Source: Labilibaculum euxinicum (GTDB lineage Bacteria > Bacteroidota > Bacteroidia > Bacteroidales > Marinifilaceae). From it: 64,000 nt of DNA. Location of the stretch: assembly GCF_009795715.1 (NCBI RefSeq), contig NZ_WTCR01000007.1, positions 248,001-312,000 on the forward strand, in the 5' to 3' direction. The position numbers and the translations under genes were made by a program. Shown one piece after another: positions 41,211-58,620 of the stretch (its first letter is position 1; the number at the start of each line of letters is the position of its first letter). Under the pieces are notes generated by a model. That model saw nothing but the letters and a program-made list of their open reading frames with translations, was not told the DNA's origin and did not search any database.

Positions 41211-41298
41211 GGAGGGATGACAGAGTGGCCGATTGTGCGTGCTTGGAAAGCACGTGTACCGCAAGGTACCGGGGGTTCGAATCCCTCTCTCTCCGCCA
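41211..41298 (+). tRNA. tRNA-Ser (anticodon GGA)
   Basis: An 88-nt class II tRNA ending in encoded CCA. The acceptor stem GGAGGGA pairs with TCTCTCC (41288-41294). The anticodon loop TTGGAAA is closed by CGTGC/GCACG, with anticodon GGA at 41245-41247. A long variable arm (TGTACC...GGTACC) and the T-loop TTCGAAT follow. Its 3' end is the integration site of the island, so the last bases of this gene (from about 41284 on, including the CCA) probably come from the element. Confidence 0.97.
41284..41296 (+). other. attL of the integrated island (13-bp repeat in tRNA-Ser 3' end)
   Basis: CCTCTCTCTCCGC here is repeated exactly at 58101-58113. Integration by tyrosine recombinases into tRNA 3' ends leaves such a repeat at each side. 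The integrase gene starts 254 bp away. Confidence 0.75.
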
Positions 41299-41320
41299 TG
41301 CAGAAATGCAACAGAAGGAA

Positions 41321-41353
41321 AAGCCTTGTAAACCTAACGTTTACAAGGCTTTC
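41321..41353 (+). terminator. Terminator following tRNA-Ser
   Basis: AAGCCTTGTAAAC (41321-41333) and GTTTACAAGGCTT (41339-41351) form a 13-bp perfect stem with a 5-nt loop. It is on the island side of attL, so it belongs to the element and replaces the tRNA's original terminator. Confidence 0.8.
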
Positions 41354-41399
41354 TTCATTTAGTACCAAAGCAATCAAACACCTAAAACAGCAATAAAAA

Positions 41400-41444
41400 G
41401 GTGTAGCATTCGGTGTAGATTAGAAAGCTTAATTTTGCTACACC
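41400..41444. promoter_or_regulatory. Integrase arm-type site cluster near attL
   Basis: GGTGTAG occurs at 41400-41406 and 41412-41418, and inverted (CTACACC) at 41438-41444. The 11-mer ATTCGGTGTAG (41408-41418) recurs exactly at 58026-58036 near the other end of the island. Repeats shared by both inner ends of an element and placed just inside the core sites are what arm-binding sites of tyrosine integrases look like. Confidence 0.5.
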
Positions 41445-41549
41445 GCGAACAGGTACTAATGCACTATAATTCATTATTTTGCTCTCTTCAAAAATCACTC
41501 GTTTGCTAGTTTTGACAAATCGTTTTAAAACATTCAAAAACCAGTAAAA

Positions 41550-42761
41550 ATGAGACAAACTACTTCTATTTTATTTTTTGCAAGAAAAACTACTCAACTG
41601 AAAAATGGAGAATCTCCAATCTTCGTAAGAATCACTGTCGATGGTCAAAGATTAGATATCTCTTTGAAGAAAAGTATCGATTCTAAACTATGGGATGCCA
41701 ATAAGGGAAAGTGCAAAGGCAACTCTCTTAAGACAAAAGAAAACAATCGTTACATTCATTACATGGAAGAAAAACTCTTGAAAATCGTTAACGATCTTGA
41801 AATTCAAGAAGAGCTTACTTGTAAAAATATAAAAGCGTGTTTAAATCAGGAGAATGAAGATCTTAGTATTATAAGCATCTTCCAGAGACACAATGAAAGA
41901 TGTGAAAAGCGTATTGGAATAGATATGGCAGAAGGAACAGTAGAACGTTACCAAACTTGTTTAAAACACACTCAAGACTTCATCAAAACACAATACAACT
42001 TAAAAGATTTACCCCTAAACAAAATCAACCATCAATTTATTACCGATTTTGAACATTACTTTAGAACAATACGAAAATGCTCTACCAATACCACTTTTAA
42101 ATACCTTAAAAATTTTAAGAAAATAACGAATTTGGCTCTAGCAAACGAATGGATGAGATCAGACCCTTTTGCAAAAATCAAGTTCAAAATGGAGAAGGTT
42201 GATAAAGAGTTTTTAGATGATGAAGAATTGAAGAAATTGATGGATAAAAGCTTCGAAATTAAACGTCTTGAAATTATTAAAGATCTCTACCTATTTTGTT
42301 GCTTTACAGGATTAGCTTTTTCAGATGTAAAATCTCTTAGCCTAGAACAAATTGTAAAAGGTATAGATGGTAATCTATGGATAAAAAGTAGAAGGCGAAA
42401 AACTAAAGTCGAATTCGATATTCCACTTTTTGAGATTCCCAAAGCTATTCTTGCTAAGTACAAAGATGATCCTATTTGTATGGTTCAGCAAAAACTATTG
42501 CCCGTACCCAGCAACCAAAAGATGAATGCCTATTTAAAGGAAATTGCAGACCTATGTGGTATTAACAAAAATCTAAGCACTCACTCTGCCAGACATACAT
42601 TTGCGACAACGGTTACTCTAGGCAATAATCTCAACATTAAGGCTATTTCGAAGATGATGGGGCATACCAACACCAGAATGACAGAAAACTATGCTAGAGC
42701 TAGCGAAAAGCTCATCTCAAAGGAGATGAATAAGATTCAAGGGATGTATCAATATGTATAA
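41550..42761 (+). CDS. Site-specific tyrosine recombinase (island integrase)
   Basis: A 403-aa phage-integrase-family recombinase of the Bacteroidetes type. An N-terminal arm-binding segment (about 1-100), a SAM-like core-binding domain (about 105-205) and a catalytic domain (about 215-400) are present. Catalytic features include the Lys hairpin (SRRRKTKVEFDIP), the H..R box HSARHTFAT, GHTNTRMTENYA with the nucleophile Tyr. The first Arg of the classic pentad is missing: the segment reads CFTGLAFSDVKSL with Ala at that place, as known for CTnDOT-like integrases. It lies just inside attL and should insert and excise the island at tRNA-Ser. Confidence 0.93.
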   Translation: MRQTTSILFFARKTTQLKNGESPIFVRITVDGQRLDISLKKSIDSKLWDANKGKCKGNSLKTKENNRYIHYMEEKLLKIVNDLEIQEELTCKNIKACLNQENEDLSIISIFQRHNERCEKRIGIDMAEGTVERYQTCLKHTQDFIKTQYNLKDLPLNKINHQFITDFEHYFRTIRKCSTNTTFKYLKNFKKITNLALANEWMRSDPFAKIKFKMEKVDKEFLDDEELKKLMDKSFEIKRLEIIKDLYLFCCFTGLAFSDVKSLSLEQIVKGIDGNLWIKSRRRKTKVEFDIPLFEIPKAILAKYKDDPICMVQQKLLPVPSNQKMNAYLKEIADLCGINKNLSTHSARHTFATTVTLGNNLNIKAISKMMGHTNTRMTENYARASEKLISKEMNKIQGMYQYV

Positions 42762-42772
42762 AAGTTAATGCA

Positions 42773-42810
42773 AAAATCCCCGAGCACCATTACTGTTGTT
42801 CGGGGATTTT
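42773..42810. terminator. Bidirectional terminator between the integrase and the operon end
   Basis: AAAATCCCCGA (42773-42783) and TCGGGGATTTT (42800-42810) form an 11-bp stem with A/T flanks in both directions. It serves the convergent integrase and the six-gene minus-strand operon. Confidence 0.82.
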
Positions 42811-42818
42811 CTTAATCA

Positions 42819-44081
42819 TTATTGAATCAGCTGAGTATTTTTATTATTCTGGTAGTGTACAATTACTCTCTCCCGATATATTTGATGACTATTTGAATGG
42901 TTTAATTTAAATGGGAAAGGATAAAACCCTAAATTATTTTGAATCACAAATGACAAAAAATCATGCCATTTTATCTCATACTTCTCTCTCAATGCCTTAA
43001 ACTCATTATATAACATTGTTTTTCTCTTCTTATCATTTAATCGATTTAAGATTTCATTCTCAAATTCTTTATTATATTTTCTATCCAAAAGATTCTCAAT
43101 AGTAGATTTTCCATCGGTAATCAGGAAACCAAACCCATGATTATCACAAAATTCTATCAATGCAGAAAATTTTCTATGAACACGTGCATCAGCCATACCT
43201 GTCATATCTTTTACTTCTACGATAAAAGCTTCACCTGATTCCAAAAAGACTGCAAAATCAGGAGTATATTTGTGATTATAACCATTATTATCGTATTCAA
43301 TTGTTGTTGGTTGCTCAACAAAGAATTTCACATTTGGCATGCACTCAAGCATTAAAATAAAGTTCAATTCAATTCCTGATTCGTATTGAATTTTCCTTTT
43401 GCATTTAGCACTCTCATAGTACCCTGTTATATAGTCTGAATCCTGATTAACTTCTCTTTTAGGTTCAAGATTCTGAGTATTAATATTTTTCCAAATTCTC
43501 TTTTTTTCACCCCAAATAACATTGCTCAACAACCAATCTTGCTTTTGCTTTATCTTTTGTTTGTATTTTTCTGCTCGATAAGACTCTAATTGTTCTCTTT
43601 TTATCTTTGCAAATTGTAGCTTTTTCCATTTTTTATAAGCTGAAATATTCCTATTGATATCTTTGTTCTCTGCATACAGTAAGTGAGAACACAATTTTAC
43701 TATTTTATCTCCTGATATTTCTACAATATGCTTATTCCAGAAACTGATCAACTGCTCATATGTATTTTCGCCTTTCGAACTTTCAACCTCATATATCAAT
43801 AAATCAAAAAGCCTTTTACATGGAATATCCGTATTTGCTCTTCTTCCAAACCCACGTAATTTGCGTAATGCTTTATTATGAATTTGTCTAATTCTTTCTC
43901 TTGATAAACCAAATTCTTGTGCTATTTCCGCATGTGTCGCAAAAGTATTATTTTCAAAATCATAACTTTTCTGCAAGATCACTCCTTCTCTATCCGTAAT
44001 AACTCTCTTATTGGAATTTTCCCGTTTCGAAAAAAGACACTCATTAAATAGTTCGATTAATTTTTGCCCTGTTGATGTCAT
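42819..44081 (-). CDS. Sigma-70 region-4-like HTH fused to a TnsA-like PD-(D/E)XK nuclease
   Basis: About 420 aa, last gene of the operon. I start at 44081, where ATG overlaps the previous stop as TAATG; numbering below is from that ATG. Residues about 25-80 end in a helix-turn-helix EFGLSRERIRQIHNKALRKL that is almost a sigma-70 region 4.2 recognition helix. No other sigma regions are present. A charged helical linker follows (about 150-185). Residues about 225-310 carry ESGIELNFILMLE, YTPDFAVF and AFIVEVKDM. This E...PD...ExK order is that of the TnsA-family and related PD-(D/E)XK nucleases. The C-terminal 110 residues are unassigned. Function is likely DNA cutting guided by an HTH or RNA-polymerase contact; this is inference. 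The combination is unusual. Confidence 0.72.
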   Translation of the reverse strand: MTSTGQKLIELFNECLFSKRENSNKRVITDREGVILQKSYDFENNTFATHAEIAQEFGLSRERIRQIHNKALRKLRGFGRRANTDIPCKRLFDLLIYEVESSKGENTYEQLISFWNKHIVEISGDKIVKLCSHLLYAENKDINRNISAYKKWKKLQFAKIKREQLESYRAEKYKQKIKQKQDWLLSNVIWGEKKRIWKNINTQNLEPKREVNQDSDYITGYYESAKCKRKIQYESGIELNFILMLECMPNVKFFVEQPTTIEYDNNGYNHKYTPDFAVFLESGEAFIVEVKDMTGMADARVHRKFSALIEFCDNHGFGFLITDGKSTIENLLDRKYNKEFENEILNRLNDKKRKTMLYNEFKALREKYEIKWHDFLSFVIQNNLGFYPFPFKLNHSNSHQIYRERVIVHYQNNKNTQLIQ

Positions 44082-45844
44082 TACAAACAATTTTCTAATT
44101 CAATTTCCCTCCATTTATCTGGAAAATAGGGCGTTTGAAAATAAATATGAGCCAGATCTTTTAAAAATGATAAACCTGCCTTATCGGTACGATATTCATA
44201 TTGAAATTCATCCTTTCTTTTTGCAAATTCTTCCTTAAATTTCTCAAAACTCAAATCTTTATTAAGGTCTTCAAATAAAGAAATATCATGCTGGTAGCCA
44301 TCATTAAAATGTGGATTAGAGAATAATTGCTCTTCTAAATCATCTTCATTATTTTCAATTAAGTTTTTCGAAGTTGAATATATTCCATGATGTGGAGTGA
44401 ATATGCCAATATCAATCTTATTCTCAATCAAAAATTTACGAACATCATAATACTCTTCCTCTAATTCGAATATTGCAATATATTCCATTATAACGGCTAA
44501 TAATGGGCTTGTTGAATCAGAATAATAAACTGGTTTTTCATGGGTAAGAGTAAATCTTATTACACTTTTATAGCTGTTGTTAGCATCAGGTAATCGACCA
44601 TATTTTTCCTTTCCATTTTTAATATAGAAAATCACACCTTTCAGATAATTTATTGCACTTGCTTTGTCCCCTGCGAATACTAATAAGTTTATTACATCGA
44701 TGATCGGAATAGAATTCACATCTAAAAGAGGTCTCATTGAAACACTATTAGCATTAAGAACTTTAATTATGACTTCCTTTATACTTTGTTTGTGATCTAA
44801 ATCATCTCCCTCAATAGAACTCAACATTAAGCATAAATATTGAAGATACTCAAATGTCCTTTTGGTATACCCTATTTGTTCATACCTACCGGAACTTTCA
44901 GATGAAAGCCCATTATTAATTACAGCAATTCCCAATGTTCTTTGAAAATATTCTGTTAAAACAGATCGATAAAAATCCAATGTTTGAGTAAAATAGCCTA
45001 AAACTTTCTTATCTGTTTCTAATTTATTTTTCAATATCCAATACCAATATCGTATAATCAAGTGTGTCAAATATCGTTTTGATAAATCAAAGTTATTATA
45101 TTCCTTAGCCTCAGTGTAAACGATAAATGAAATAAGCTTCAATGTTTCAAATAACATTTCCCATTTTCGGTTTAACTTTGTCTTATATCCTTCCCATTTT
45201 TCTTTTTCAAATAAAGCATCTAACAAATCAATAAAATCACTTGAAACATGATTTGACGCGTTCAAATTAATCAGAACTTTATTAAACAAATTAGTTGTTT
45301 TTACATCTGTTAAAAGAAAGGCTCCAAATAAGTTATCTGTAAACAGTTCTGTTAGTTTCTCAATATCCCATCTATCATATTCATTCACACCATCTTTTGG
45401 AAATTCTTGTTTAAGAAACCCATCGTAAACATCTCGAATATTCCCTTTAAGTATACCATTGTGAACTAATACAATTTTTTTAGGAAGACTATCAAAATCC
45501 TGATAATCTGACTTAAAGTCAACCAATTTCGCTTCAGTTAGTGATTGAAATATCCCATACTCTTTATAGAATGTAGCTTTTGAAACATCCCTATCTGCAC
45601 CTCCTTTTAACTCAAAGTAAAATCTTTTTTTCTTTCCATACCCAACATCGTCCTTATCTACAAAGACATCTTTCCCAACTGCAATTATATCCTTTCCAAA
45701 TTCTTGTAACCCTTTGTTTTCAGTAGGCTTCGATAAAATGTCAAAATTTAAAGAAGTTAATAAAATAGGAAAGATTCTATTTAACTCACTTTCCTCTGTT
45801 AAAGACTCCAAATATGATTTAACAATTAATGGTTTAATATTCAT
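44081..45844 (-). CDS. Unknown 587-aa protein with an N-terminal PD-(D/E)XK-like domain
   Basis: Not recognised as a named family. Residues about 15-130 have the pattern of a restriction-endonuclease-like fold: a helix with ESELNRIF, then LQEFGKDIIAVGK with Asp52, and RFYFELKGGA with Glu78 and Lys80, as in Mrr-type nucleases that test for linked DNA. The spacing D-X25-E-X-K is plausible. The remaining 450 residues are helical, probably repeat-like, with no motifs I know. It is coupled to the genes on both sides by TAATG overlaps (45844 and 44081), which suggests that the three proteins are made in fixed proportions and may form a complex. Confidence 0.7.
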   Translation of the reverse strand: MNIKPLIVKSYLESLTEESELNRIFPILLTSLNFDILSKPTENKGLQEFGKDIIAVGKDVFVDKDDVGYGKKKRFYFELKGGADRDVSKATFYKEYGIFQSLTEAKLVDFKSDYQDFDSLPKKIVLVHNGILKGNIRDVYDGFLKQEFPKDGVNEYDRWDIEKLTELFTDNLFGAFLLTDVKTTNLFNKVLINLNASNHVSSDFIDLLDALFEKEKWEGYKTKLNRKWEMLFETLKLISFIVYTEAKEYNNFDLSKRYLTHLIIRYWYWILKNKLETDKKVLGYFTQTLDFYRSVLTEYFQRTLGIAVINNGLSSESSGRYEQIGYTKRTFEYLQYLCLMLSSIEGDDLDHKQSIKEVIIKVLNANSVSMRPLLDVNSIPIIDVINLLVFAGDKASAINYLKGVIFYIKNGKEKYGRLPDANNSYKSVIRFTLTHEKPVYYSDSTSPLLAVIMEYIAIFELEEEYYDVRKFLIENKIDIGIFTPHHGIYSTSKNLIENNEDDLEEQLFSNPHFNDGYQHDISLFEDLNKDLSFEKFKEEFAKRKDEFQYEYRTDKAGLSFLKDLAHIYFQTPYFPDKWREIELENCL

Positions 45845-47718
45845 TACATCTTATTTAGGTTAATTTCGTATAAATCTGGATTAAGGTAACATTCAGCATC
45901 AACCAGCATTTCTGATCTGATATCAGCCAAAGGACGAGATTCCTGTTCTCCATGTTTCCATGAATTTCCTCTCACAATTACAATATTTTTTGCAATCTGA
46001 GATAAAAAACCTTTTTGATTTTTTGCCTGATCCATCGCTTTTGCATTCTCCTCACGTTCCAACCTGTAATAAAATTCCATTAAATCACTTTCATTTTCCC
46101 TTGGATCAATATCTTTCACAGATTCTTTTATTTTTTTTACTTCATAATAATTATCCAATGATTCTTTAATTGGTTTAATAAATTCTTGATCTTCTTCGGA
46201 ATCTGAAATTTCTTTTTCAATTAATTTGAATATTGATTCATGGTAAGAGTAGAATACCTTTTCACTCAATCTTCTTTGTAAAAATTCTCTTGTTTTTTTA
46301 AACTTTGATTTTCTTAATTCTAATAGAATAGGTATTAATTCATCGAAACAAATAGGTGATTTGCAAATTCCCTTAATTGCATTTATTTGAGCCTCTTCTT
46401 CTTTCAGTTTTAATAAGTTCACATTATAAACCCCATGATGAGAAGACTGAATAATTTTAACAGCTAAAATGCTGAACAAGGGATGCTCTTTAAACAAATT
46501 GAGAATAATATTTTCCGTAGCTACTTGATTGGTTTGCCAAGCTTGACTTATTCCATTTCTAAATAATTCTATTTTAAAACGGAATTGAGGATTATTTTCA
46601 AAATTTGCTATTATATAATTGAAGATATATTGAGGATTTTTGAAATTATCGAAAAACCTGTTGAGTATTTTAATCTTTTTAGTTTTTGAAAGATACATAA
46701 GCATTAGATTATACTTATCAGCTTCAAAGTCGTCCAAGTAAGTACTAATCCCATGGAAAACTATATCTAGAACCTTATCTGTACCCTTTTCTATAAAATT
46801 AACTAATGCCTGAAAACTCTTTGCCTTAATTTCTTCAGAAGATGCCGAACTGTTTATTAAATTAAATAACAAATAGGATTGTTCACTAGCGACATTTTCA
46901 TCTTCAAAATTGAGCGGAAAAACACTCTTAAATATATTCTCTATGTCTATTTCATTAGCATATTTAATTCGCGCTAATACAAATAAAGATTCCTGACAAT
47001 CGACTTCTTTTAATTTAATCCCCACTTCTAAAGCTTTCCTATCTCCTGCATCATACAATCCTATTAAAAGGTGTGACGCTATTCTTAAGGGACTATTCCT
47101 ACTATTTAAATCAATTAATAAATCATTTGCCTTTTCGGTATTAATACTTCCATATTCTCTCAGAAAATTAATTATACTAGAATTAAGGTTTTCCTTATCC
47201 CATAGCTGTATACACATCTCGGCTATTTCTTTAGCCGAATAACCAGAGTAAGGTAAAAAATTCATAAATACTCGTTCAAAACTGTATAAATGATTTTCTT
47301 TCTTCTCTATATCTTTCAAAGTAATTAAAAACTCTCTAGGATCTGCAATATCTTCCCTTTTGAATTTATTTAGAACATACGTCTTTAAGCCTTTAATTAC
47401 CTTATCGTAAGCATTTACAATATTGATCTTATATTCCTTGCGTTTATTCTCTTTAAAATCATTAATACATTTAAAAGCTCCTGAGAATTCAAGTGGAAAC
47501 TGTTTACCTACTTGCGTTTCAATAAACATTAATAAATGTTCATAAAACAGCTCATTAGGTGTCAACACTAAGATATCTATGTTGTCTTCACTTTCTTTAA
47601 GAATATTAACTGAAATTAATTCTTTACAATCTCCAATTTCAGATTTATTAAATAACATTCTATTTTCTTTTAACAGAATCTCAATAATAAGATAAATATT
47701 TGTTTCCAATTTAGTCAT
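45844..47718 (-). CDS. Unknown 624-aa helical-repeat-like protein
   Basis: I do not recognise the family. The sequence is almost all helical, with repeated short helix pairs (for example ANDLLIDLNSRNSPLRIASHLLIG and EIKAKSFQALVNFIEKG, quoted separately), which is how HEAT/ARM-type scaffolds look. No nuclease, ATPase or membrane motifs are visible. Its stop shares one base with the next start (TAATG at 45844). The position between a predicted protease-fold protein and two predicted nucleases fits a scaffold or sensor subunit; this is inference. Confidence 0.65.
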   Translation of the reverse strand: MTKLETNIYLIIEILLKENRMLFNKSEIGDCKELISVNILKESEDNIDILVLTPNELFYEHLLMFIETQVGKQFPLEFSGAFKCINDFKENKRKEYKINIVNAYDKVIKGLKTYVLNKFKREDIADPREFLITLKDIEKKENHLYSFERVFMNFLPYSGYSAKEIAEMCIQLWDKENLNSSIINFLREYGSINTEKANDLLIDLNSRNSPLRIASHLLIGLYDAGDRKALEVGIKLKEVDCQESLFVLARIKYANEIDIENIFKSVFPLNFEDENVASEQSYLLFNLINSSASSEEIKAKSFQALVNFIEKGTDKVLDIVFHGISTYLDDFEADKYNLMLMYLSKTKKIKILNRFFDNFKNPQYIFNYIIANFENNPQFRFKIELFRNGISQAWQTNQVATENIILNLFKEHPLFSILAVKIIQSSHHGVYNVNLLKLKEEEAQINAIKGICKSPICFDELIPILLELRKSKFKKTREFLQRRLSEKVFYSYHESIFKLIEKEISDSEEDQEFIKPIKESLDNYYEVKKIKESVKDIDPRENESDLMEFYYRLEREENAKAMDQAKNQKGFLSQIAKNIVIVRGNSWKHGEQESRPLADIRSEMLVDAECYLNPDLYEINLNKM

Positions 47719-47763
47719 TAGGATTTAAGTTCTTTTCTTTTGATTACATTCAGCAAGAAATAA

Positions 47764-48471
47764 TTACTTTAAATAAGGATCTGGATAAACTATTTTTAAA
47801 CGGGCTCCAACAAATCCAAATTCAAGATCTTCAAGGTTCTCCTTTGATTTAAGGGGATGTTCAGTATTATTATATTTCATGTATTTCAATAAAGCTTTTT
47901 GAGTGCTTTTGTAGAGTGACAATTGTTTAATACTCGACATAATTTCCTTGTCAGAAATCCTTACTCCTCTAGTCGTGTCTTGATAAATTGTTATTATTAG
48001 ATCATTACGGCTTTTATCAGTCCAATTATTGAAATATATGATTTCATAATTATCACCCCATGCATCAACAATAATGTCCTCAGAGTCTTCCATTAATATT
48101 CTCACAAATACATGATAATCTCCCTCATTAATTATCATTTTCAAACGACAAAGCTGGATTTGCAATCCTTTTGTCGATTGCATAAGCTCCAAAAAAATTA
48201 GAGATGAATATTCATAACAGAATCCACCTTCTGCTATTCTTGCGACACAAGCCCGTAGTTGTATTTTTTCTAATTCATTTAAGTTATCTCGATCAACTTT
48301 TTTATATAAATCCCTAGCATAATCAGCCCTTCCAAGACTCTGTGATTCAGAGCTTATTATATCTTGAATAATATTACCAGCACCGTAGTGCAATATTTTT
48401 TTTGAATTAGCAATTGCCTGTGTTGCTATTCGAGAAATATCAACTGCTGCAATTAAATTTTCTTCTGACAT
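47764..48471 (-). CDS. Predicted Cys-His-Asp papain/transglutaminase-fold protein
   Basis: A 235-aa protein with no signal peptide. Three segments line up like the active site of papain/transglutaminase-fold enzymes: GGFCYEYSSLIFLEL with Cys85 at the start of a helix, EGDYHVFVRILME with His120 in a strand, and EDIIVDAWGD with Asp136 followed by Trp. The same order and the D-A-W ending are seen in bacterial effector proteases and deamidases. The N-terminal 70 residues and C-terminal 80 residues are unassigned. In the operon it lies between the UvrD-like helicase (83-bp gap) and the helical protein (45-bp gap). A protease or deamidase activated on infection is a plausible role but is inference. 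Confidence 0.65.
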   Translation of the reverse strand: MSEENLIAAVDISRIATQAIANSKKILHYGAGNIIQDIISSESQSLGRADYARDLYKKVDRDNLNELEKIQLRACVARIAEGGFCYEYSSLIFLELMQSTKGLQIQLCRLKMIINEGDYHVFVRILMEDSEDIIVDAWGDNYEIIYFNNWTDKSRNDLIITIYQDTTRGVRISDKEIMSSIKQLSLYKSTQKALLKYMKYNNTEHPLKSKENLEDLEFGFVGARLKIVYPDPYLK

Positions 48472-48554
48472 ATTTTTTGTTTACTATAATACATAGCAAT
48501 GAGACAATACCATAGTTAACCGTTAAGGTTTCTTCTCAAATGTTATCTGTAAGT

Positions 48555-50483
48555 TTAAAGAGGAATTACGTTATCAACCCCAAACCATTCTTTTGCTTGG
48601 TCAATTATTTCAGTCGAAGGATTGTGATAATAAACGGCCAGTTTTTCTTTAGCTCTGGTACAGCAAACATAAAAGATTTTCTGAGTTCTTTTTAACACAC
48701 TTTCTTTGTCAACTCTATTCGTAAATAAATATTCAAAATTGTAATCATTCCACTTTCCATTATCTAAAATGACAAAGACATTATTAAATTCGGCTCCTTT
48801 AGTTTTATGCTGCGTAGAAAAGGGTGTGTAACCTTCCAAATATTGATACAAATTTTGAAACTCTTTGAAAGGAATATCTTTCACACGGTTATACAGATAC
48901 TCATTTCGATTTTTAAAATCTGTTATGTGATCATCAATCAAGCAAATTCCTTTGTCATTTGCATCATTAATGACTTCTTCGATGGTTTTCATACCAACAT
49001 TCATTAATTCTTCAATATTCCCTTTTAGAATTCTTTTATCTTCGATACGTCTTATTTGATTCCTAAAATCTGTAATTCTCAAAAAATCATTATACTTCTT
49101 GTCAGAATAAAGTGAGATGTTTGATTGAATTTTGAATAGATGTTTAATCAATTTATCTCTTTTGGATCCCTTTCTATTTTCTTCTTCTGTATCTTGTTTT
49201 TTATTATCAATTAAAGAATCCTTTGTAAGATATATTTTTCGAACTATCGAGAATGGCTTATCTTTTAACTGATTATACAATAATAAATTTGCGGGTTCTT
49301 GTAATAAAACATCTTTCTTTAATAGACGTTGTCTATTTTTTAATGCAAATTTATCAACAACTATATCAAATGTATCTTCTTCTTCAATTTCGATTTCTGG
49401 TTTATTATTCTTTTTATTGTATTTGATTTTATTTAGAATATCTTTCTTTAAACTAATCACAGGATCTTTATCGTAGATATCCATTAATCCAATGAAGCCG
49501 GCTTTATCAGCGATAAGATTATGTGTTAGATTTAATTCTTTTGTTTCCTTTAAATTGGTAAAATCCCAATAAAGTTCTTTTGAAAGAAAATCCTTTACAT
49601 GATCAATATTTCCATCTGATGAATAAATAAATTTGATTTCACCATCTTTAATTTTCTCATCTACCATGTTTGGAGCTAACACATCTAAAGAAGCTTTCTG
49701 TATTATACCATCTGTACGTAATAAGTTAGCGAGATCAATAATTAATTGAGGATTTCTTCGATTTTGATTTTTCTTTATTTCCTTTAAATTATCAACGGCA
49801 TCACCCTTATAAACATCTACATTACCTATACCGTCATCATAAATAGCCTGCATGGAATCACCGAACAAACCAATTATATTTGATTTAGTACTTTTAATTA
49901 AATGTTCAAGAAAAATCTCTATTACAAGTTTATTAGTATCTTGATACTCATCAATGAAAATAAACTTGAATTTATCCTTTAAAATACCACTTAGAGAAGG
50001 ATATTTTTCAAACATACCATTCGTCAGAATTAATAATTCATCATGAGAAATTATACCATCTTTTAGCCTTAGAAATTCTTTATATTGAATACCATCTTTG
50101 CATTCGTCGTAGAAATTATCTGGAACATTATCATCCTCAATATTTATCCTTTTAACGTCGACATTATTTGACAATGCGATTAAAGTAGATTTTAGTTCTT
50201 TTTGAAAATGTTTTATATTATCCCATAAAAAATCATGAATGGTTGATACACTTAAATTCTTGTGATCAACCCTTTCTTCAATTTCTTTTACAGCTGCATT
50301 TGTATACGTCATACATGCAACTTGAGCAGTTGGATTTTCTTTAATAACTTGTCTTATAACTTGAACTAATGAATAAGTTTTTCCACTACCAGCACCACCG
50401 CTTAATAAGAAATTTTGATTATTGTCAATACACTTTAAGATCTCTTGTACTTCTGGTTCTAGTTCTAATCTTGTTTCAACCAT
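48555..50483 (-). CDS. UvrD-like helicase of a Gabija-like pair (GajB-like)
   Basis: An SF1 helicase of about 642 aa. I start at 50483 (MVETRLELEPEVQEIL), which leaves a 19-nt overlap with the upstream gene; the start at 50519 would add 12 residues. Motifs are complete: Walker A SGGAGSGKTYSLV, MTYTNAAVKEIEERV (Ia), FIFIDEYQDT (II), FGDSMQAIYD (III), NQNRRNPQLI (IV), STQHKTKGAEFNNVFVIL (V) and FYVCCTRAKEKLAV (VI). In Gabija and class 2 OLD systems a UvrD-like helicase is always paired with an OLD nuclease, as here. It is somewhat longer than the GajB proteins I know. Confidence 0.85.
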   Translation of the reverse strand: MVETRLELEPEVQEILKCIDNNQNFLLSGGAGSGKTYSLVQVIRQVIKENPTAQVACMTYTNAAVKEIEERVDHKNLSVSTIHDFLWDNIKHFQKELKSTLIALSNNVDVKRINIEDDNVPDNFYDECKDGIQYKEFLRLKDGIISHDELLILTNGMFEKYPSLSGILKDKFKFIFIDEYQDTNKLVIEIFLEHLIKSTKSNIIGLFGDSMQAIYDDGIGNVDVYKGDAVDNLKEIKKNQNRRNPQLIIDLANLLRTDGIIQKASLDVLAPNMVDEKIKDGEIKFIYSSDGNIDHVKDFLSKELYWDFTNLKETKELNLTHNLIADKAGFIGLMDIYDKDPVISLKKDILNKIKYNKKNNKPEIEIEEEDTFDIVVDKFALKNRQRLLKKDVLLQEPANLLLYNQLKDKPFSIVRKIYLTKDSLIDNKKQDTEEENRKGSKRDKLIKHLFKIQSNISLYSDKKYNDFLRITDFRNQIRRIEDKRILKGNIEELMNVGMKTIEEVINDANDKGICLIDDHITDFKNRNEYLYNRVKDIPFKEFQNLYQYLEGYTPFSTQHKTKGAEFNNVFVILDNGKWNDYNFEYLFTNRVDKESVLKRTQKIFYVCCTRAKEKLAVYYHNPSTEIIDQAKEWFGVDNVIPL

Positions 50484-52621
50484 ACTAAACCCTCTTTTAT
50501 ATATGCAGGAATACTCCAATTGCTAAATTCAATATCGTTCTTATCTGTCTCACTATTAAGTAATATTTCAATCGCAAGAGCAGGTTTTTTTATCACTGCT
50601 TTTTCAGAAAAATCAAAAACATCAATTGTATCATTTTTAAAACTTTCCAAATGTGTTGGCCTTAAACTTGAAAATATATTTTTTTCATGTGTTATGAAAT
50701 CTTTATTAATATGGAAAAAAGCATCTTCAAAACTTCTGGCATGATATCCTGATTCTTCTATTTGATACAACACTAAAAGGTTTCCTTTAGGGTCAGCATG
50801 CCATTTTTCATCACCATTTTTACTTAATATTTTTTTATCAAACTTTAATTCTTTAAAATACTTAAGATCCTCTGGTGCATTATGAAAAAATTTCAAGGAA
50901 TTATTGGAAGTACTTCTTGCGTCCTTATGACTAGCTGCGCACGGTTCAACTACAAATCTTAATTTTCCATTTTTATACTCCTTTTGCACTCCTTTATCAT
51001 CAAGTTCTGGTTTTAAATAATAACTATCTATGTCAGTTATTATTATAGATTTTTCAATCCCAATAAAGTCAATAAACTTTTCGAATATATGAGAATGAGC
51101 ACCAACCTCTACTATTGAAATATTCTGTGATAATAATGGATTATCCTTATATTCTTGATCAATCTTTTTCATCATAGCAGGCAATAATATCCTTTCAGTA
51201 TCACCTTCAATGAAGATTGCCTTATCTGCAAATAATAATTCTGCTCTATTTAATGTGAGGTATTGTTTTAAGAAGCGGAAGTTTTTTTCTTCGTCTTTAT
51301 ATTCCTCTTCTAAATCCATTAAATCTTTTGAAACAATTTCATTACTCAAAGTTTTTCTGAGATATTTAATATCGTTAAAATCACTATCTGCTACAATATG
51401 GGAAGAGTGAGTACTTATAATGTATTGGAGATCTCTATTTTCTCCATCTTCACGCTTTACACCTTCTTTTAATAGATCTTTTATGTTTTTTATAAACACA
51501 TATTGCATTTGAGGATGCGTATGGGCTTCTGGTTCTTCAATGAATAAAAGGTTAATATCGGCTGGTTTTTCATCCTTTTTACGTCTAAATTCTTGAACTA
51601 GTATTTCTATTTCAAAAATCATGCTTATTAGGTTTAAGTAACCTAACCCATTATTATACTCAGGAAGTTTATTTTCAGCATCGTGCTTATAAACAACTGT
51701 TGTATTGCCCTCAAGTAACTCTCTGTGTTGTAGTGTAGAAATAATTTCAATCTCAGAGTCGTTAGGTTTAATTCCTCCAAACTTCTTTACCTTTTCAATA
51801 GTACCGTTAAATAAGCTAGAATATATACCACTCAACTGAGTGTCTGTGTCAATTAATTTATCTTTAAATTCTTCAATTGTGTTGTTTTCTTCTTCACTAG
51901 CTTCGGTTCTTCTATAAATCCTTGAAGTCTGCCCAGAAAGTGTTTTATCAACTTCTTTGTTTGTCACATCCCTTTTAGCACTAATATATTTGAAATTTAG
52001 GATTTCTTTAATGCTTATTTTCTCAGAATCTAAATCTATATAATTATTTAATTCTGCTTCATCAGTTTCTTTATTATATCCAAATGAATATTTCTTAGAT
52101 TTGAAATAATCAGAATGCCTATTATTAAGAAAATCAGTTAATGATTTAATTTTATATTGGTCATTCTCTTCAAACTTAGCAGTTTCTTTATTCTCAAATA
52201 TTTGATAATCACTTCTTAAACGTTTATAATCGGAATAGCTAATGATGTATTCAAATCCTAATACTACTTTGTTATTTTCAGGATCTAAATCCATCATAAC
52301 TCTACTAATATTCGCCAGGTTATCGTTCTCAAAATATTCGATAAATAATTTTAGCTTTATTCCTAATGGTTCATAATCCTCTTCAGAAATAGTATCTGTA
52401 GATCTGATCCAATTATCAAAGTCATGTTTAAATTCAATATTGAAATCATAGTAAGAGAATCTATTACGTTCTGATTGATTAAGGAATTTATCCAATGCTG
52501 CTAATATTGAAGTTTTTCCAGAATTATTTTTACCCACTATTAAAGAAAGTTCTTCTTCTAAGTTTATCTCAAAATCCTTTAGAATTCTAAAATTTTCAAT
52601 TTCAATATTAAAAATATGCAT
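50465..52621 (-). CDS. OLD-family ATP-dependent endonuclease of a Gabija-like pair (GajA-like)
   Basis: A 718-aa protein with an ABC/SMC-type ATPase head split by a long insertion, then a TOPRIM nuclease domain. Walker A is GKNNSGKTSI (30-39), the signature-like segment YNNGLGYLNLISM (322-334), Walker B INLLFIEEPEAH (356-367) and the H-loop STHSSH (403-408). TOPRIM motifs are IFIEGDTERILLPAM (Glu472) and ITDIDS (Asp530, Asp532). GajA-type proteins nick DNA when nucleotide levels fall during phage infection; that is family knowledge. The length exceeds the usual GajA (near 580 aa), mostly by the insert about 60-320. It heads the six-gene operon. Confidence 0.87.
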   Translation of the reverse strand: MHIFNIEIENFRILKDFEINLEEELSLIVGKNNSGKTSILAALDKFLNQSERNRFSYYDFNIEFKHDFDNWIRSTDTISEEDYEPLGIKLKLFIEYFENDNLANISRVMMDLDPENNKVVLGFEYIISYSDYKRLRSDYQIFENKETAKFEENDQYKIKSLTDFLNNRHSDYFKSKKYSFGYNKETDEAELNNYIDLDSEKISIKEILNFKYISAKRDVTNKEVDKTLSGQTSRIYRRTEASEEENNTIEEFKDKLIDTDTQLSGIYSSLFNGTIEKVKKFGGIKPNDSEIEIISTLQHRELLEGNTTVVYKHDAENKLPEYNNGLGYLNLISMIFEIEILVQEFRRKKDEKPADINLLFIEEPEAHTHPQMQYVFIKNIKDLLKEGVKREDGENRDLQYIISTHSSHIVADSDFNDIKYLRKTLSNEIVSKDLMDLEEEYKDEEKNFRFLKQYLTLNRAELLFADKAIFIEGDTERILLPAMMKKIDQEYKDNPLLSQNISIVEVGAHSHIFEKFIDFIGIEKSIIITDIDSYYLKPELDDKGVQKEYKNGKLRFVVEPCAASHKDARSTSNNSLKFFHNAPEDLKYFKELKFDKKILSKNGDEKWHADPKGNLLVLYQIEESGYHARSFEDAFFHINKDFITHEKNIFSSLRPTHLESFKNDTIDVFDFSEKAVIKKPALAIEILLNSETDKNDIEFSNWSIPAYIKEGLVWLKQD

Positions 52622-52864
52622 CTCCTGTTATTTTTTGTTCAATCCTATCAAATTTATGAAAAACAAGTAGCAAACAGCCTATTGATATAAAGTAAAATAT
52701 AGAGTCCACATAAAATAGAATAATTCCACATAATTATTAATACCAGTTATTAGAACATGATTATTCTCCTAAGTGTAGCTAGACAGAGAACCAAGGCGAT
52801 TTAAAGTCCTTATAGGATCAGATAAATTAACTAATAGTTCTGAGTGTATGTAATTACAACATTT

Positions 52865-53575
52865 TATTGAATTTTAAGCATAGCGTAACTCGGTCTTACA
52901 CCAGTTATTTGTCTAAATAACCTGATCATCCAGATAAAAAAGCAGATTATTTTAGTGAACATTCCCATATCACTAGTAAAATCAGCTAACACAGAGAATC
53001 AAAACCGAATCATTGAGCAATAATAAAGGGGGTTTTAAGCAGGGCTTAGCCCGGTCTTAGCCCGGTTTCTTACCTAGATAAACTGATCACCCAGACAGAA
53101 TAACAAATCAATATGGTGTAAACTCCCATTTGACTAGTGAAATCAGCCAACACAGAGAATCAAAACCAAATCAGTAAGTAATGATAAAGGGGTTTTAAAC
53201 AGGTCTTAGCCCGGTCTTAGCCCGGTTTTTTATCTAGATAAATGATCATCCAGACAGAAAAACAAATTATCTTAATGGAAACTCCCATTTTACCAGCAAA
53301 ATCAGTCAATACAGAGAATCAAAACCTAATCATTGAGCAATAATAAAGGGGTTTTAAGCAGGGTTTATCCCGGTCTTAGCCCGGTTTCTTACCTAGATAA
53401 ACTGATCACCCATACAGAAAAACAAATCAATATAGTGGAAACTCCCATTTTACTAGTAAAATCAGTCAATACAGAGAATCAAAACCTAATCAGTAAACAA
53501 TGATAAAGGGGTTTTAAGCAGGGTTTAACCCGGTCTTAGCCCGGTTATTTATCTAGATAACCTGATCATCCATAT
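52865..53575. repeat. Array of about four and a half 160-bp direct repeats, probable part of a replication origin
   Basis: The marker GAGAATCAAAACC (first bases) begins at 52994, 53155, 53314 and 53474, giving periods of 161, 159 and 160 bp. A diverged copy precedes them from about 52865. Each unit has a doubled CTTAGCCCGG-type decamer, then a TATCTAGATAA-like element, then TGATCAYCCA. The last copy carries TATCTAGATAACC (53550-53562), identical to each arm of the inverted repeat at 55920-55950. No reading frame spans the array. It lies just downstream of the helicase gene, as origins do in several phage satellites. Confidence 0.85.
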
Positions 53576-53605
53576 TCTCAAATTTAAGAAAAATCGTATT
53601 TTCTT

Positions 53606-53809
53606 CTTACCCTCTTACCCAACTTCCACAACTCACTCATTTGCAAAGCTTCTGGCAGGGTAAGATAAGTTCACTCTTCTTACCCAAAAATCCATTTTTG
53701 AGAAAACTGCAAGAATTCTCTTACCCAAAGGTAAGAGGAAAAACCACACCTTACCCGAAGTAAAACCCTGATTACTTATCGTTTAAACAGTCAGGGTAAG
53801 AAGGGTAAG
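53606..53809. repeat. Cluster of eight CTTACCC/GGGTAAG iteron-like heptamers
   Basis: CTTACCC occurs at 53606, 53614, 53679, 53720 and 53750, and its complement GGGTAAG at 53658, 53794 and 53803. A shortened copy is near 53730. Eight exact copies in about 200 bp lie between the 160-bp repeats and the helicase stop at 53827. Dense, oriented short repeats are typical of binding sites for a replication initiator. The region holds no gene. Confidence 0.75.
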
Positions 53810-53826
53810 AAGAAAACGTGAAAAAA

Positions 53827-54990
53827 CTAAATTTTTGAATCCAGATAATAACCATAAACTCCATTTAGTTTCTTCTTGGGGATATCAATCTGTTTTAAAG
53901 CTTTGCCAATTTTCACAACATTCAGATAGTTAATATTCAACATCTGGCTAAGTTTCGTCTTGATATCGGTTGCAGTCCGAAACGAATTAGGATCTTCTGT
54001 TTCATCATGTGTAAAGTGTTTTTGAATCAACTGTCTTTCTTCGGATAGAATTTGAAACGCCTGATTCCTGCTTTCATTCTCGTTGATCTCGTCCAATGAT
54101 AAATTACAGTCAAACTTGGTTTTCACAAGATGGTAAGCCTGAGCATAGACCAAATCAATATCAATCTTCTTCGAATACTCCCAATCTATTTTTTCAATCT
54201 CAAAACACAGCCAGCGAACAGATCCTGTTTCATCCATTAGAAACTCCATTTCATTGGTAGAACCAATAAAACTACATCTTCTGGGAATCACCGAAGCCTT
54301 TCGTTCATAGGGTAACCGATCATTGATCTTCTCCTTTGAAAAAAGAGCCTTTAGGCTATTGATATCTCTTCGTGAAAGGGTTGCCAATTCATCCAGATTG
54401 ATCAGAATATTTGTTGCCAGAGCAATACGGCTGTCTTTATCAATCGATATGTTCTCGGAGATATAATCGCCCAAAGTTGGCGGACATAGAAACCTACAGA
54501 AAGTTGATTTCCCACTGTTCTGCTTATCGTGAACAAATATTAAAGCTTGCTTGTTAAAAAACCGACTGTCTATTGCTGTTTTAATGACCCGAACCATCCA
54601 CTTCCGAAAATGTAATTCAAAAGACTTTTGATCCTTGGTGTGAACAAAAGAAGCTAGATTTCCGATATGATCAATCCCATCCCACTCCGGAAGATTGGAA
54701 AAATAACTTTCGAATGGATTATAATCGGGCACATAATCAGATTTTAAAAGAGCCAAAAGGTTTGCAATACTAATATTTATACCTTCTTTCTGCAATTCTA
54801 TATAAAGTGAATTTTCACATAGTATCCGCCATTTAGAAGCATCTTTCTTTCTTATCTCAATATCAAGACTTATAATGTTATTTCTAAGCAAATAACGTTC
54901 ATTCAGATATTCTTCAGTTAAGCTGAACTTATTTGCAATTGTTTTCTTAGGAGCTATTTCACTCACTTTCTCAGTATTTTCAGTTGTCAT
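53827..54990 (-). CDS. VirE-family P-loop helicase of the element's replication module
   Basis: A 387-aa protein with the VirE (virulence-associated E) domain. Walker A is FVHDKQNSGKSTFCRFLCP (about 153-170), Walker B ILINLDELATLSRRD (about 195-208), and GSTNEMEFLMDETGSVRWLCFEI is the conserved sensor segment (about 250-275). VirE-type ATPases are helicase-like partners of prim-pol primases in Bacteroidetes mobile elements. The ATG overlaps the stop of the PriCT-like gene by four bases (54987-54990). The origin-like repeats follow its stop directly. Confidence 0.86.
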   Translation of the reverse strand: MTTENTEKVSEIAPKKTIANKFSLTEEYLNERYLLRNNIISLDIEIRKKDASKWRILCENSLYIELQKEGINISIANLLALLKSDYVPDYNPFESYFSNLPEWDGIDHIGNLASFVHTKDQKSFELHFRKWMVRVIKTAIDSRFFNKQALIFVHDKQNSGKSTFCRFLCPPTLGDYISENISIDKDSRIALATNILINLDELATLSRRDINSLKALFSKEKINDRLPYERKASVIPRRCSFIGSTNEMEFLMDETGSVRWLCFEIEKIDWEYSKKIDIDLVYAQAYHLVKTKFDCNLSLDEINENESRNQAFQILSEERQLIQKHFTHDETEDPNSFRTATDIKTKLSQMLNINYLNVVKIGKALKQIDIPKKKLNGVYGYYLDSKI

Positions 54991-55370
54991 ATCCTGTTTT
55001 TTATCAGTACACCATGAGTTTTAGCGATCCAAAAAAGAGTTGCCAATGTAATTCCTCCACCCCTGCACTTCAAACAATTTGTATATTGTTTATCGCACTT
55101 TTCACGATTGTAATCAGGATTCAAACGGCTTATTCGGTGAAAGTAATTACGTCCTGTTTCTCCCAAAGACTCTGAAAGACTAAACCCAATATTCCTCCAA
55201 GTTTCATAGCCTTGAGTGATATCTATGCTACATGATTCAATCATTTGTGTTAATTGTTCAACATTTGTCAGTAAGTCACCAACAACCGCAGTTGTTGGTG
55301 GTTTGCTCTGGATAGTTCTGGGTTGGTTCTTCACCTCTACCCATACATGCGGATTAAATACCTTTTTCAT
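54987..55370 (-). CDS. PriCT-2-like primase C-terminal domain protein
   Basis: A 127-aa protein whose residues about 35-120 match the PriCT-2 type helical domain (TQGYETWRNIGFSLSES, NYFHRISRLNPDYNREKCDKQYTNCL split over two helices, GGGITLATLFWIAK). In most relatives I know this domain sits inside one long protein between a prim-pol domain and a VirE helicase. Here it is its own gene, overlapping the upstream gene by 17 nt and the downstream gene by 4 nt. An ATGA-type junction argues for a true split rather than a sequencing frameshift, but this is not proven. Confidence 0.72.
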   Translation of the reverse strand: MKKVFNPHVWVEVKNQPRTIQSKPPTTAVVGDLLTNVEQLTQMIESCSIDITQGYETWRNIGFSLSESLGETGRNYFHRISRLNPDYNREKCDKQYTNCLKCRGGGITLATLFWIAKTHGVLIKNRI

Positions 55371-55980
55371 GACTCAAATATTTGGGATTTATATAAACCT
55401 GAGGGTCATATGGCAGAAAGCATGCACGTGCAAGGTCTTTTCCCGAAGCATCAACTTCTATTCGATAAGTTTGTTTCAAGTAATTGCTCACAGCCTTAAA
55501 ATAGTTCTTGTGGTCCATCAAGCTGATATCGATAGCAATCACCCATTTTAATCCATCACCCGATGGAGAACGGAACAAAAGAACCGTTTCCAAGCTCTCA
55601 TCAGCTAGTAAGCTCTTTTTAACTCCATCCACATCCGGCAAATGATCAAAGTCCAGCACCATCAAGCCTGAATGATGTTGAAAATGTTTCTCACTTCTTT
55701 TGGTAAATGTTCCTGAGAAGCAGACATAGTTGAACTGGCTTGCTTTAAAGGCTCTGGCTTCTTCAATATCTTTGATTTGTCGTAAGGTCTGAGTTCGTTC
55801 AATATTCCAATGTCCTTTAATAAGCGTATAAGCATCAAGAACAGTTATTGTCCTGTATGGCTTGGTATTAGATATTGGCTTTTTGAAGAAGCTAAACTCA
55901 TGTATCTTTATTTTTATCTGGTTATCTAGATATTCAGTATCTAGATAACCGTTTATTTTATCACTTAAATTTGGTTTCAT
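55354..55980 (-). CDS. Prim-pol-like protein, BT4734/VirE N-terminal family
   Basis: A 208-aa protein. The segment around 100-150 (QHHSGLMVLDFDHLPD with the Asp110-X-Asp112 pair, then LFRSPSGDGLKWVI) is that of archaeo-eukaryotic-type primases in the BT4734-like family that precedes VirE domains. The Asp pair would bind metal for primer synthesis. Codons 11-21 of the gene contain the perfect 13-bp inverted repeat at 55920-55950. First gene of the three-part replication operon. Confidence 0.78.
   Translation of the reverse strand: MKPNLSDKINGYLDTEYLDNQIKIKIHEFSFFKKPISNTKPYRTITVLDAYTLIKGHWNIERTQTLRQIKDIEEARAFKASQFNYVCFSGTFTKRSEKHFQHHSGLMVLDFDHLPDVDGVKKSLLADESLETVLLFRSPSGDGLKWVIAIDISLMDHKNYFKAVSNYLKQTYRIEVDASGKDLARACFLPYDPQVYINPKYLSHEKGI
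55920..55950. promoter_or_regulatory. Perfect 13-bp inverted repeat inside the prim-pol gene start
   Basis: GGTTATCTAGATA (55920-55932) and TATCTAGATAACC (55938-55950) are exact complements around a 5-bp spacer. The same 13-mer is in the last 160-bp repeat (53550-53562), with related forms in the other copies. A binding site for a replication or control protein of the element is the simplest reading. Confidence 0.65.
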
Positions 55981-56112
55981 ATTATTTCATTTTTTAGAAA
56001 GATTAGGGCATAGTTATCCTGTTTGCAAAGCATTACCACTTCACAGCATATTAAGTCTATGCCATACAATTCGATTAATTTAAAGGAAAAGAAGATTCCT
56101 TTTAAGAAAGGT

Positions 56113-56400
56113 TTACTTAAAGGATCTCACGTAATGTTTGTTCAAATGAGCTTCAATATCTGAGCTCTTATAGTAGATTTTTGAACCAATTTGAGAAAAG
56201 GCTAAAGTACCGTTATCACGATAGGTTTGAAGCGTTCGCTTGCTAATAAGAAGTGTTTGACAAACTTCCTGATTGTCAAGCCATCTTTCTTCTAATGGAT
56301 AAAAGTGTTTTCTACTTAATTTTTCAACAGCTTCTTCCATGCTTCTTAATTGCGAGTTTATCTTTAGAAAAGCATCACTGCTCATTGTTACTACTTCCAT
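56113..56400 (-). CDS. Helix-turn-helix (excisionase-like) protein
   Basis: A 95-aa protein with an N-terminal coiled helix (about 10-35) and a winged HTH_17-type domain (about 38-90: WLDNQEVCQTLLISKRTLQT, then YRDNGTLAFSQIGSKIYYKS). Proteins of this kind precede the primase operon in many Bacteroidetes integrative elements and act as excisionase or regulator. It ends 132 bp before the prim-pol start. Confidence 0.82.
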   Translation of the reverse strand: MEVVTMSSDAFLKINSQLRSMEEAVEKLSRKHFYPLEERWLDNQEVCQTLLISKRTLQTYRDNGTLAFSQIGSKIYYKSSDIEAHLNKHYVRSFK

Positions 56401-56487
56401 AATATTGAAATTTAGAGTTAATTAATAAAAATCAAATCTATCTAGCGCTAGTAGATCGTTTCGGAAGCAAACATAGGCAGTACAAAG

Positions 56488-56521
56488 CAAAAAAAGGGTT
56501 GCAACTAACTTGTACAACCCT
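56488..56521 (-). terminator. Terminator of the 441-aa gene
   Basis: On the minus strand GGGTTG...CAACCC (56520-56515 and 56501-56496) forms a 6-bp stem followed by seven T. It lies 46 bp after the stop at 56567. The rest of 56401-56566 shows nothing else. Confidence 0.7.
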
Positions 56522-56566
56522 CAGTAAGCTCACTGATTATCTGCATGATAATTCACATATTTTTAT

Positions 56567-57892: not shown

Positions 57893-58025
57893 ACTATTCC
57901 TTTAAATTTTTATTAAGTTGACAAAACTAATAAAATGCGGTGCATTCTGAACATTTTTTATATCTTTGAATTACTCGCAAACGAGAACATTTTGATAAAA
58001 AGCAAAGCAATCAAGTAGTTACATA

Positions 58026-58036
58026 ATTCGGTGTAG
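58026..58036. promoter_or_regulatory. Integrase arm-type site near attR
   Basis: ATTCGGTGTAG matches 41408-41418 exactly. It lies 65 bp inside the attR core, mirroring the cluster beside attL. Confidence 0.45.
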
Positions 58037-58100
58037 TGAAAAATAGTTTACAGAGCTAAATCATTGTATTACAGCATACGAGATAGGGATGGTTCAAGAT

Positions 58101-58113
58101 CCTCTCTCTCCGC
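58101..58113 (+). other. attR of the integrated island
   Basis: CCTCTCTCTCCGC repeats 41284-41296. The preceding GGTTCAAGAT resembles the T-arm of tRNA-Ser without forming a tRNA. What follows (an A run and a terminator stem) is presumably the tRNA's original downstream sequence. Confidence 0.75.
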
Positions 58114-58120
58114 AAAAAAA

Positions 58121-58404: not shown

Positions 58405-58620
58405 CTATTCAATTTTTAAATTCAACCTACGGGCACGATCTTGAATTAATGCGGTATAGGCTTCTTTCATTTTGAGAGGAAGGAAACTGCTTTCAATCAG
58501 ATCAAACCAAGACGGGATCGTTTTTTCAAATTTTGTAAAGATATTATCCTGTGTTTTTTCCGGAATCTCAAACAGATTAAAGTCTGTAAAAAATAATGAT
58601 CTCACCTGGAATGAAAACAT
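58405..58620 (-). CDS. Small protein at the end of the paralogue operon
   Basis: A 71-aa protein of unknown function (MFSFQVRSLFFTDF...). The ATG at 58620 overlaps the stop of the gene before it as TGATG, so it is probably translated by coupling. It is amphipathic and has no membrane helix or metal motif. It could be a small partner of the larger proteins, or the separated tail of one. Confidence 0.55.
   Translation of the reverse strand: MFSFQVRSLFFTDFNLFEIPEKTQDNIFTKFEKTIPSWFDLIESSFLPLKMKEAYTALIQDRARRLNLKIE

Follow-up and report, generated by a model that had tools for sequence, protein, structure and literature searches.

The 64,000 bp stretch of Labilibaculum euxinicum DNA analysed here (contig NZ_WTCR01000007.1 of assembly GCF_009795715.1, positions 248,001 to 312,000; hereafter the window, whose own numbering is used throughout) contains six genes that lie as cargo within an element integrated at a tRNA-Ser gene. 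The genes form a run of open reading frames (ORFs) on the minus strand, from 52621 down to 42819. All six same-strand genes of the original prediction, which was made from the sequence alone, are present and open; two of the listed TTG starts need correction, that of gene 2 to the ATG at 50483 and that of gene 6 to the ATG at 44081. Four of the six are matched by PADLOC 2.0.0, as GajA and GajB of the Gabija system and OloA and OloB of Olokun. Gaps of 83 bp and 45 bp separate gajB from gene 3 and gene 3 from OloA, and the TAATG overlaps predicted for the last three genes are found at the OloA/OloB and OloB/gene 6 junctions. The segment is AT-rich: in 2-kb steps its G+C is 28-32%, whereas the rest of the window has 31-41%. 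A scan of promoters and terminators gave no signal beyond the chance level. Our reading, to which we assign a probability of about 0.92, is that the cargo consists of two independent known anti-phage systems, Gabija and Olokun, together with two orphan genes (3 and 6), in an exchangeable slot.

Genes 1 and 2 had been called a Gabija-like pair, and PADLOC and Pfam matches agree. Gene 1 (50465-52621, minus strand) encodes a GajA of 718 amino acids, an OLD-family ATPase/TOPRIM nuclease (PDLC00079, E 6.7e-295) with the Pfam domains AAA_15 (E 4.1e-66) and OLD-like_TOPRIM (E 2.4e-13). Gene 2 (48555-50483, minus strand) encodes a GajB of 642 amino acids from the ATG at 50483, a UvrD-like helicase (PDLC00135, E 7.2e-229) that Pfam also places in the UvrD helicase family, and its start lies inside the 3' end of gajA. 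GajA has a Walker A motif at residues 30-37 and, placed by motif, the TOPRIM residues FIEG with E472 and DID at 530-532 (D530/D532); the GajB motifs are the Walker A sequence GGAGSGKT and a DExQD box that reads DEYQD. The Gabija active-site features set out in the available part of PMC10781630, among them the invariant glutamate and the DxD of the TOPRIM domain, are present in the window pair. We infer the activities and mechanisms at this locus throughout; as published for its relatives, Gabija here, with its GajA nuclease-ATPase and GajB helicase, would be expected to target phage DNA. The choice of target is debated, and a 2025 preprint (PMC12407980), in the part available, proposes action on linear DNA unattended by RecBCD.

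At E 1e-30, 68 plasmid records contain a relative of GajA, and the best five were opened. In each of these five the helicase gene begins before gajA ends, and none of the opened stretches contains gene 3, OloAB or gene 6. The window pair resembles Gabija elsewhere in its full-length GajA and GajB, in a helicase gene that starts inside the 3' end of gajA and in the expected catalytic motifs; it differs in sequence, GajA being 36-57% identical to the five opened plasmid relatives, and its composition is ordinary. No phmmer match at E 1e-5 links GajA or GajB to the solved Gabija chains. GajA matches at E 1e-30 occur in three of 286 genomes of the order Bacteroidales, the window being one; one of the other two contigs (L123) stops within gajB, and the other (L125) extends for about 1.5 kb beyond Gabija with no match to gene 3, OloAB or gene 6.

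The original prediction held that genes 3 to 6 fit no named system, which fails for genes 4 and 5, since these are OloA and OloB. OloA (45844-47718, minus strand; 624 amino acids) matches PDLC03925 at E 7.6e-58 and OloB (44081-45844, minus strand; 587 amino acids) matches PDLC03926 at E 1e-128. Both models cover most of each protein, and the genes stand in the order OloA-OloB and overlap, as in Olokun. What sets the Olokun of the window apart is gene 6, which follows OloB with a TAATG overlap and was found in that place at none of 56 other loci. The anti-phage activity of Olokun was reportedly first described by Millman et al. in 2022. Olokun appears as a named and described system in the available parts of PMC10121019, PMC12926258, PMC10855318 and PMC12629846; the third of these files it under nuclease activity, validated or predicted, and PMC12926258, a 2026 review, gives its mechanism as unknown.

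The 56 other OloB loci, mostly from Bacteroidota, come from a scan of genome contigs with an OloB alignment. The ORF calls follow a simple rule that keeps the longest non-overlapping frames, and at several loci the contig ends too early to show the full neighbourhood. Blastp with the window OloA alone finds OloA at 36 of the 56. An OloA profile gives a match at all 56, and OloA is the ORF directly upstream of OloB in 55 of the 55 loci with more than 600 bp upstream, a count that is circular for 35 of these ORFs, from which together with the window OloA the profile was built, and independent for the rest. On this partly circular evidence Olokun appears to be a two-gene unit in other genomes. 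The 308 neighbours of at least 100 amino acids, taken from as many as five ORFs ahead of OloB and four behind it, include no family present at more than five of the 56 loci, and neither blastp nor this neighbour survey finds gene 3 or gene 6 at any of them, some loci being cut by contig ends. OloB matches at E 0.001 occur in five of 295 genomes of the order, a count that takes in the window and a weak partial match; with the PADLOC OloB model nine of 395 genomes of the phylum match, again counting the window and some partial matches. Single-protein scans of viral contigs, which reach close relatives only, returned no relative of OloB, gene 3, gene 6, GajA or the VapE-like protein of the element. 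At two loci, L054 (7931-9028 and 12631-13389) and L082 (7367-8125 and 11728-12786), the genes on either side of Olokun encode products whose N-termini look, by eye, nucleotidyltransferase-like.

Genes 3 to 6 had been proposed as a new four-gene defence system, or as an accessory set of the Gabija pair, and it is compatible with this that they lie on one strand, with gaps of just 83 and 45 bp ahead of genes 3 and 4 and a TAATG overlap at each of the two later junctions. However, genes 4 and 5 make up a named pair at the 56 other loci, at none of which gene 3 or gene 6 was found; both opened plasmid relatives of gene 6 (described below) lack an adjoining OloAB; and all four genes are absent from all five opened plasmid Gabija loci. 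We give the proposal almost no credence.

The preferred reading, two known systems with two orphan genes, also draws on the nature of the site. The tRNA-Ser island that had been predicted is present: a tRNA-Ser(GGA) gene at 41211-41298 (plus strand; ARAGORN), the integration target, is followed by a gene for a tyrosine integrase of 403 amino acids (41550-42761, plus strand; Pfam Arm-DNA-bind_5, Phage_int_SAM_5 and Phage_integrase). A 13-bp core in the 3' end of the tRNA gene (CCTCTCTCTCCGC, 41284-41296, plus strand) is repeated as the right attachment core (CCTCTCTCTCCGC, 58101-58113, plus strand), and congeneric comparison delimits the element to 41284-58113, or 16.8 kb. Two congeneric copies, L138 and L140, have the same tRNA-Ser(GGA), an integrase 93% and 89% identical to that of the window, respectively, and a block containing vapE, the PriCT, BT4734-like and HTH genes and a 441-amino-acid gene (HTH, helix-turn-helix); a third, L139, shows the right-hand block only, its contig beginning beside vapE. 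The right core recurs in all three. DNA homology between the window and two of the congeneric copies covers the tRNA and integrase genes to 42803-42808, returns from 52872-52984 and ends at 58114-58115. In L138 the slot holds genes for type I restriction-modification together with a DrmC-like protein, and in L140 an RHS/SpvB-like protein of 1970 amino acids. Because the flanks are homologous and the cargo differs between these copies and the window, the interval of the original prediction corresponds almost exactly to exchangeable cargo, and its proposed cargo slot is independently confirmed.

Within Olokun, the PD-(D/E)XK-like N-terminus that had been suggested for gene 5 is sustained by motif, conservation and modelled secondary-structure order. 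Among 47 aligned OloB sequences D52 and K80 are each present in all 47 and E78 in 45, the other two having Q. An AlphaFold2 model built on this alignment has a mean predicted local distance difference test score (pLDDT) of 90.5 and a predicted template modelling score of 0.87. Its N-terminal part runs as a helix (17-31), three strands (35-38, 53-59 and 71-80), a short helix (89-93), a further helix (98-107) and a strand (122-128), with D52 just ahead of the second strand and E78 and K80 among the last residues of the third; beyond about residue 160 the model is almost all helix. The usual order of the PD-(D/E)XK core is alpha-beta-beta-beta-alpha-beta, and in the model the OloB N-terminus is predicted to carry its D...(E/Q)xK motif on a core of this order. 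The most likely mechanism for Olokun would be that infection is detected by the helical OloA and the helical C-terminal body of OloB, which, as a sensor or scaffold coupled to the effector, would set free the PD-(D/E)XK nuclease of the OloB N-terminus.

Gene 6 (42819-44081, minus strand; 420 amino acids from the ATG at 44081) shares a one-base TAATG overlap with the OloB stop codon. Pfam upholds its prediction as a sigma4-HTH/TnsA-like protein: a sigma-70 region-4 HTH (Sigma70_r4, residues 32-79, E 3.3e-12) is fused to a TnsA-like PD-(D/E)XK endonuclease (Tn7_TnsA-like_N, residues 252-325, E 9.1e-12; numbering of the 423-residue listing). Its sole PADLOC match, to MzaA (E 6.6e-6), is by way of the HTH and was rejected, as was the NCBIfam TnsA-like model, for which it scores 62.8 bits against a cut-off of 110. 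The whole protein finds matches in 366 of 395 genomes; nearly all of the matches listed are confined to the HTH (roughly residues 13-105), and the search was therefore redone with the HTH removed. Three of 286 genomes then match, namely the window, a 237-amino-acid ORF that matches the nuclease part only, and a frame with four stops. There is no match at E 1e-5 among phage records.

Full-length relatives of gene 6 lie on enterobacterial plasmids; tblastn with gene 6 matches 302 of 72,556 plasmid records, 273 of them at a coverage of at least 80%. Two of these relatives were opened, and both lie beside excA in an IncI1-type transfer region with no Olokun; one is annotated as two ORFs. One plasmid relative beside excA, WP_000004560.1, annotated as a 'TnsA endonuclease N-terminal domain-containing protein', is co-linear with gene 6 from the sigma-4 HTH through the nuclease, with 28% identity and shared E-S-G-x-E, PD and EVK motifs, but at 528 amino acids it has a longer N-terminus and it stands alone rather than behind OloB. 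The plasmid relative is found in 256 of 5,426 complete Escherichia coli genomes (207 over at least 80% of its length), at 261 places that are all on plasmids and none chromosomal. The copy beside excA at L006 11491-13077 belongs to a protein that is common on E. coli plasmids and annotated by its domains only. Because the opened plasmid relatives carry no OloAB, the gene 6 family stands without Olokun elsewhere. Among the open-access papers searched, none of those listed addresses the function of this family. IbfA, the product of the phage-inhibition gene of IncI plasmids, was considered as an identity for gene 6 and discarded: PMC12111858 uses that name for an ATPase-TOPRIM protein, and the ibfA genes of ColIb and R64 are not related to each other, according to the available parts of PMC12111858 and PMC8004404.

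The position of gene 6 could also mean that it is a working third subunit of Olokun, a second nuclease coupled to OloB by translation. The one-base overlap is in keeping with this, as is the presence of a follower at other loci, where a same-strand ORF begins no more than 60 bp after OloB in 14 of the 49 with more than 500 bp downstream. Because of these close ORFs, Olokun operons seem to pick up followers; however, no neighbour family, followers included, is present at more than five of the 56 loci, none of the followers is gene 6, and relatives of gene 6 occur without Olokun. We consider a third subunit unlikely; most probably gene 6 encodes a separate nuclease, guided by its HTH, that was captured behind OloB. 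A more speculative proposal, which we regard as quite improbable, is that gene 6 and its plasmid relatives represent a nuclease family, as yet undescribed, that serves in defence or competition. The sigma region-4 HTH would aim the PD-(D/E)XK endonuclease so that transcribed foreign DNA is cut, and in the window the gene would have been hooked to Olokun by translational coupling. Aiming would in that case possibly occur through recognition of promoter DNA that resembles a -35 element or through docking on RNA polymerase.

The other orphan, gene 3 (47764-48471, minus strand), encodes a protein of 235 amino acids in which C85, H120 and D136 lie where they had been predicted. It has no Pfam match above the curated cut-off, none to a papain- or transglutaminase-like family among them, and none in NCBIfam or PADLOC; matches to PHROG are weak (best E 0.012). 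Assignments to PBECR1 or HcyBio (E 0.026, 0.012 and 0.00073, all below the Pfam cut-offs) were rejected, and phmmer matches in the PDB (best E 0.038) are not credible. No relative was found in plasmids, phages or viral contigs, or at the 56 OloB loci. In 291 genomes of the order there are two matches; one is the window, and the other, in G259 (E 4.8e-4), is an unrelated frame broken by two stops and was discarded. A single-sequence model has a pLDDT of 39.3 and is unusable. Gene 3 is a narrowly distributed gene that possibly encodes a cysteine protease or deamidase.

The only other neighbourhood seen with both Gabija and Olokun is at L052 (9075-19162), where Gabija, genes for proteins of 516 and 399 amino acids, and a divergent Olokun follow one another on one strand; neither middle gene has a PADLOC model match at E 1e-5. 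Cooperation of the two systems as a composite immune unit would accord with their being adjacent and on the same strand in the window, and with the reappearance in L052, among divergent proteins, of the order Gabija, two genes, Olokun. However, defence genes are known to cluster, a GajA-like ORF is found by blastp at just one of the 56 OloB loci and a GajB-like ORF at one other, and the genes between Gabija and Olokun differ between the window and L052. We hold a composite unit to be very unlikely.

The reading of two independent systems and two orphans rests directly on the profile-based identity of the genes, the intactness of both pairs, the swappable slot, the catalytic motifs and the predicted fold of OloB. 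Several observations weigh against it. Foldseek with the whole OloB model gives no PDB match at E 0.001, the best row being an AVAST5 filament (E 0.022) followed largely by tetratricopeptide repeat and other helical proteins, and the OloB profile has no match among PDB sequences. For lack of a significant Foldseek match, the nuclease assignment of OloB relies on motif, conservation and the order of secondary structure, and the glutamate equivalent to E78 is absent from the distant relatives L052 and L053, which lie outside the 47 aligned sequences and keep D52 and K80. The absence of genes 3 and 6 from other Olokun loci depends on sequence searches of loci partly cut by contig ends. The gene order in L052 means that there may be a link between Gabija and Olokun, and the TAATG overlap of OloB and gene 6 suggests co-translation, which could mean cooperation.

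Beyond the cargo, the element continues with a tandem array of 4.4 copies of a unit of about 160 bp (52872-53572; TRF), which lies between the cargo and vapE. Related arrays are present in L138 (6167-7044) and L140 (14295-14872), so that each of the three copies checked has units of about 150-160 bp where the cargo meets vapE; the array is possibly the replication origin of the element. The genes that follow are all on the minus strand and encode a VapE-like replication protein (53827-54990; PF05272, E 1.1e-32; 95-98% identical in L138, L139 and L140), a PriCT-2 primase C-terminal protein (54987-55370; PF08707, E 2.3e-17), a BT4734-like N-terminal protein (55354-55980; PF08800, E 8.3e-23), a small HTH_17 protein (56113-56400; PF12728, E 8.9e-11) that is likely an excisionase, and an element-core protein of 441 amino acids (56567-57892) that has no Pfam match at E 0.01 and is 74-99.8% identical in L138, L139 and L140. 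VapE was searched for in 21 relatives, of which nine, counting the window, belong to its genus. Five match: the window itself, three genomes of the genus at 96-98% identity and, in a fifth, a remnant; the remaining four of the genus have none. A decayed copy at a tRNA-Ser(TGA) gene (L141, 4126-15442) has a truncated integrase and vapE fragments around type I restriction-modification genes and PrrC. Just past the right end of the element, adjacent genes at 58620-59942 and 59881-61173 encode proteins of 430-440 amino acids that share stretches of sequence by eye and have no Pfam match at E 0.01.

Among the open-access papers searched, none of those listed deals with this element. P4-like satellites have an anti-phage hotspot next to the integrase with a cargo of 1-5 kb, according to the available part of PMC9122126, and the window element resembles them in being small and integrated and in the high turnover of the cargo slot beside its integrase. 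It differs in a core made of VapE, PriCT-2 and BT4734-like proteins and in a cargo of about 7-11 kb in the three copies compared. Whether it is a phage satellite, like P4 or a phage-inducible chromosomal island (PICI), or an integrative element of another kind is close to an even question, leaning slightly away from a satellite. The integrase, HTH protein, primase parts and VapE favour a satellite, as does the lack of any structural or conjugation gene recognised by Pfam among the core genes, and the hotspot beside the integrase recalls the P4-like satellites of PMC9122126, as far as its available part goes. Set against these, no packaging gene is recognised and no helper identified, the 441-amino-acid gene is of unknown family, and the viral contigs scanned hold no relative of the VapE.

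With four of the six genes now placed under two named systems a false lead is removed, and what is unknown at the locus narrows to one tractable protein family, that of gene 6, which is the only part with a claim to novelty, the rest being ordinary. For OloB the analysis supplies candidate catalytic residues that are conserved, along with a model of high confidence; the involvement of a nuclease in Olokun is not a new idea, as PMC10855318, in the part available, already lists nuclease activity, validated or predicted. The element, in a genus of the Bacteroidales and with its exchangeable cargo slot, is a place in which to seek further systems.

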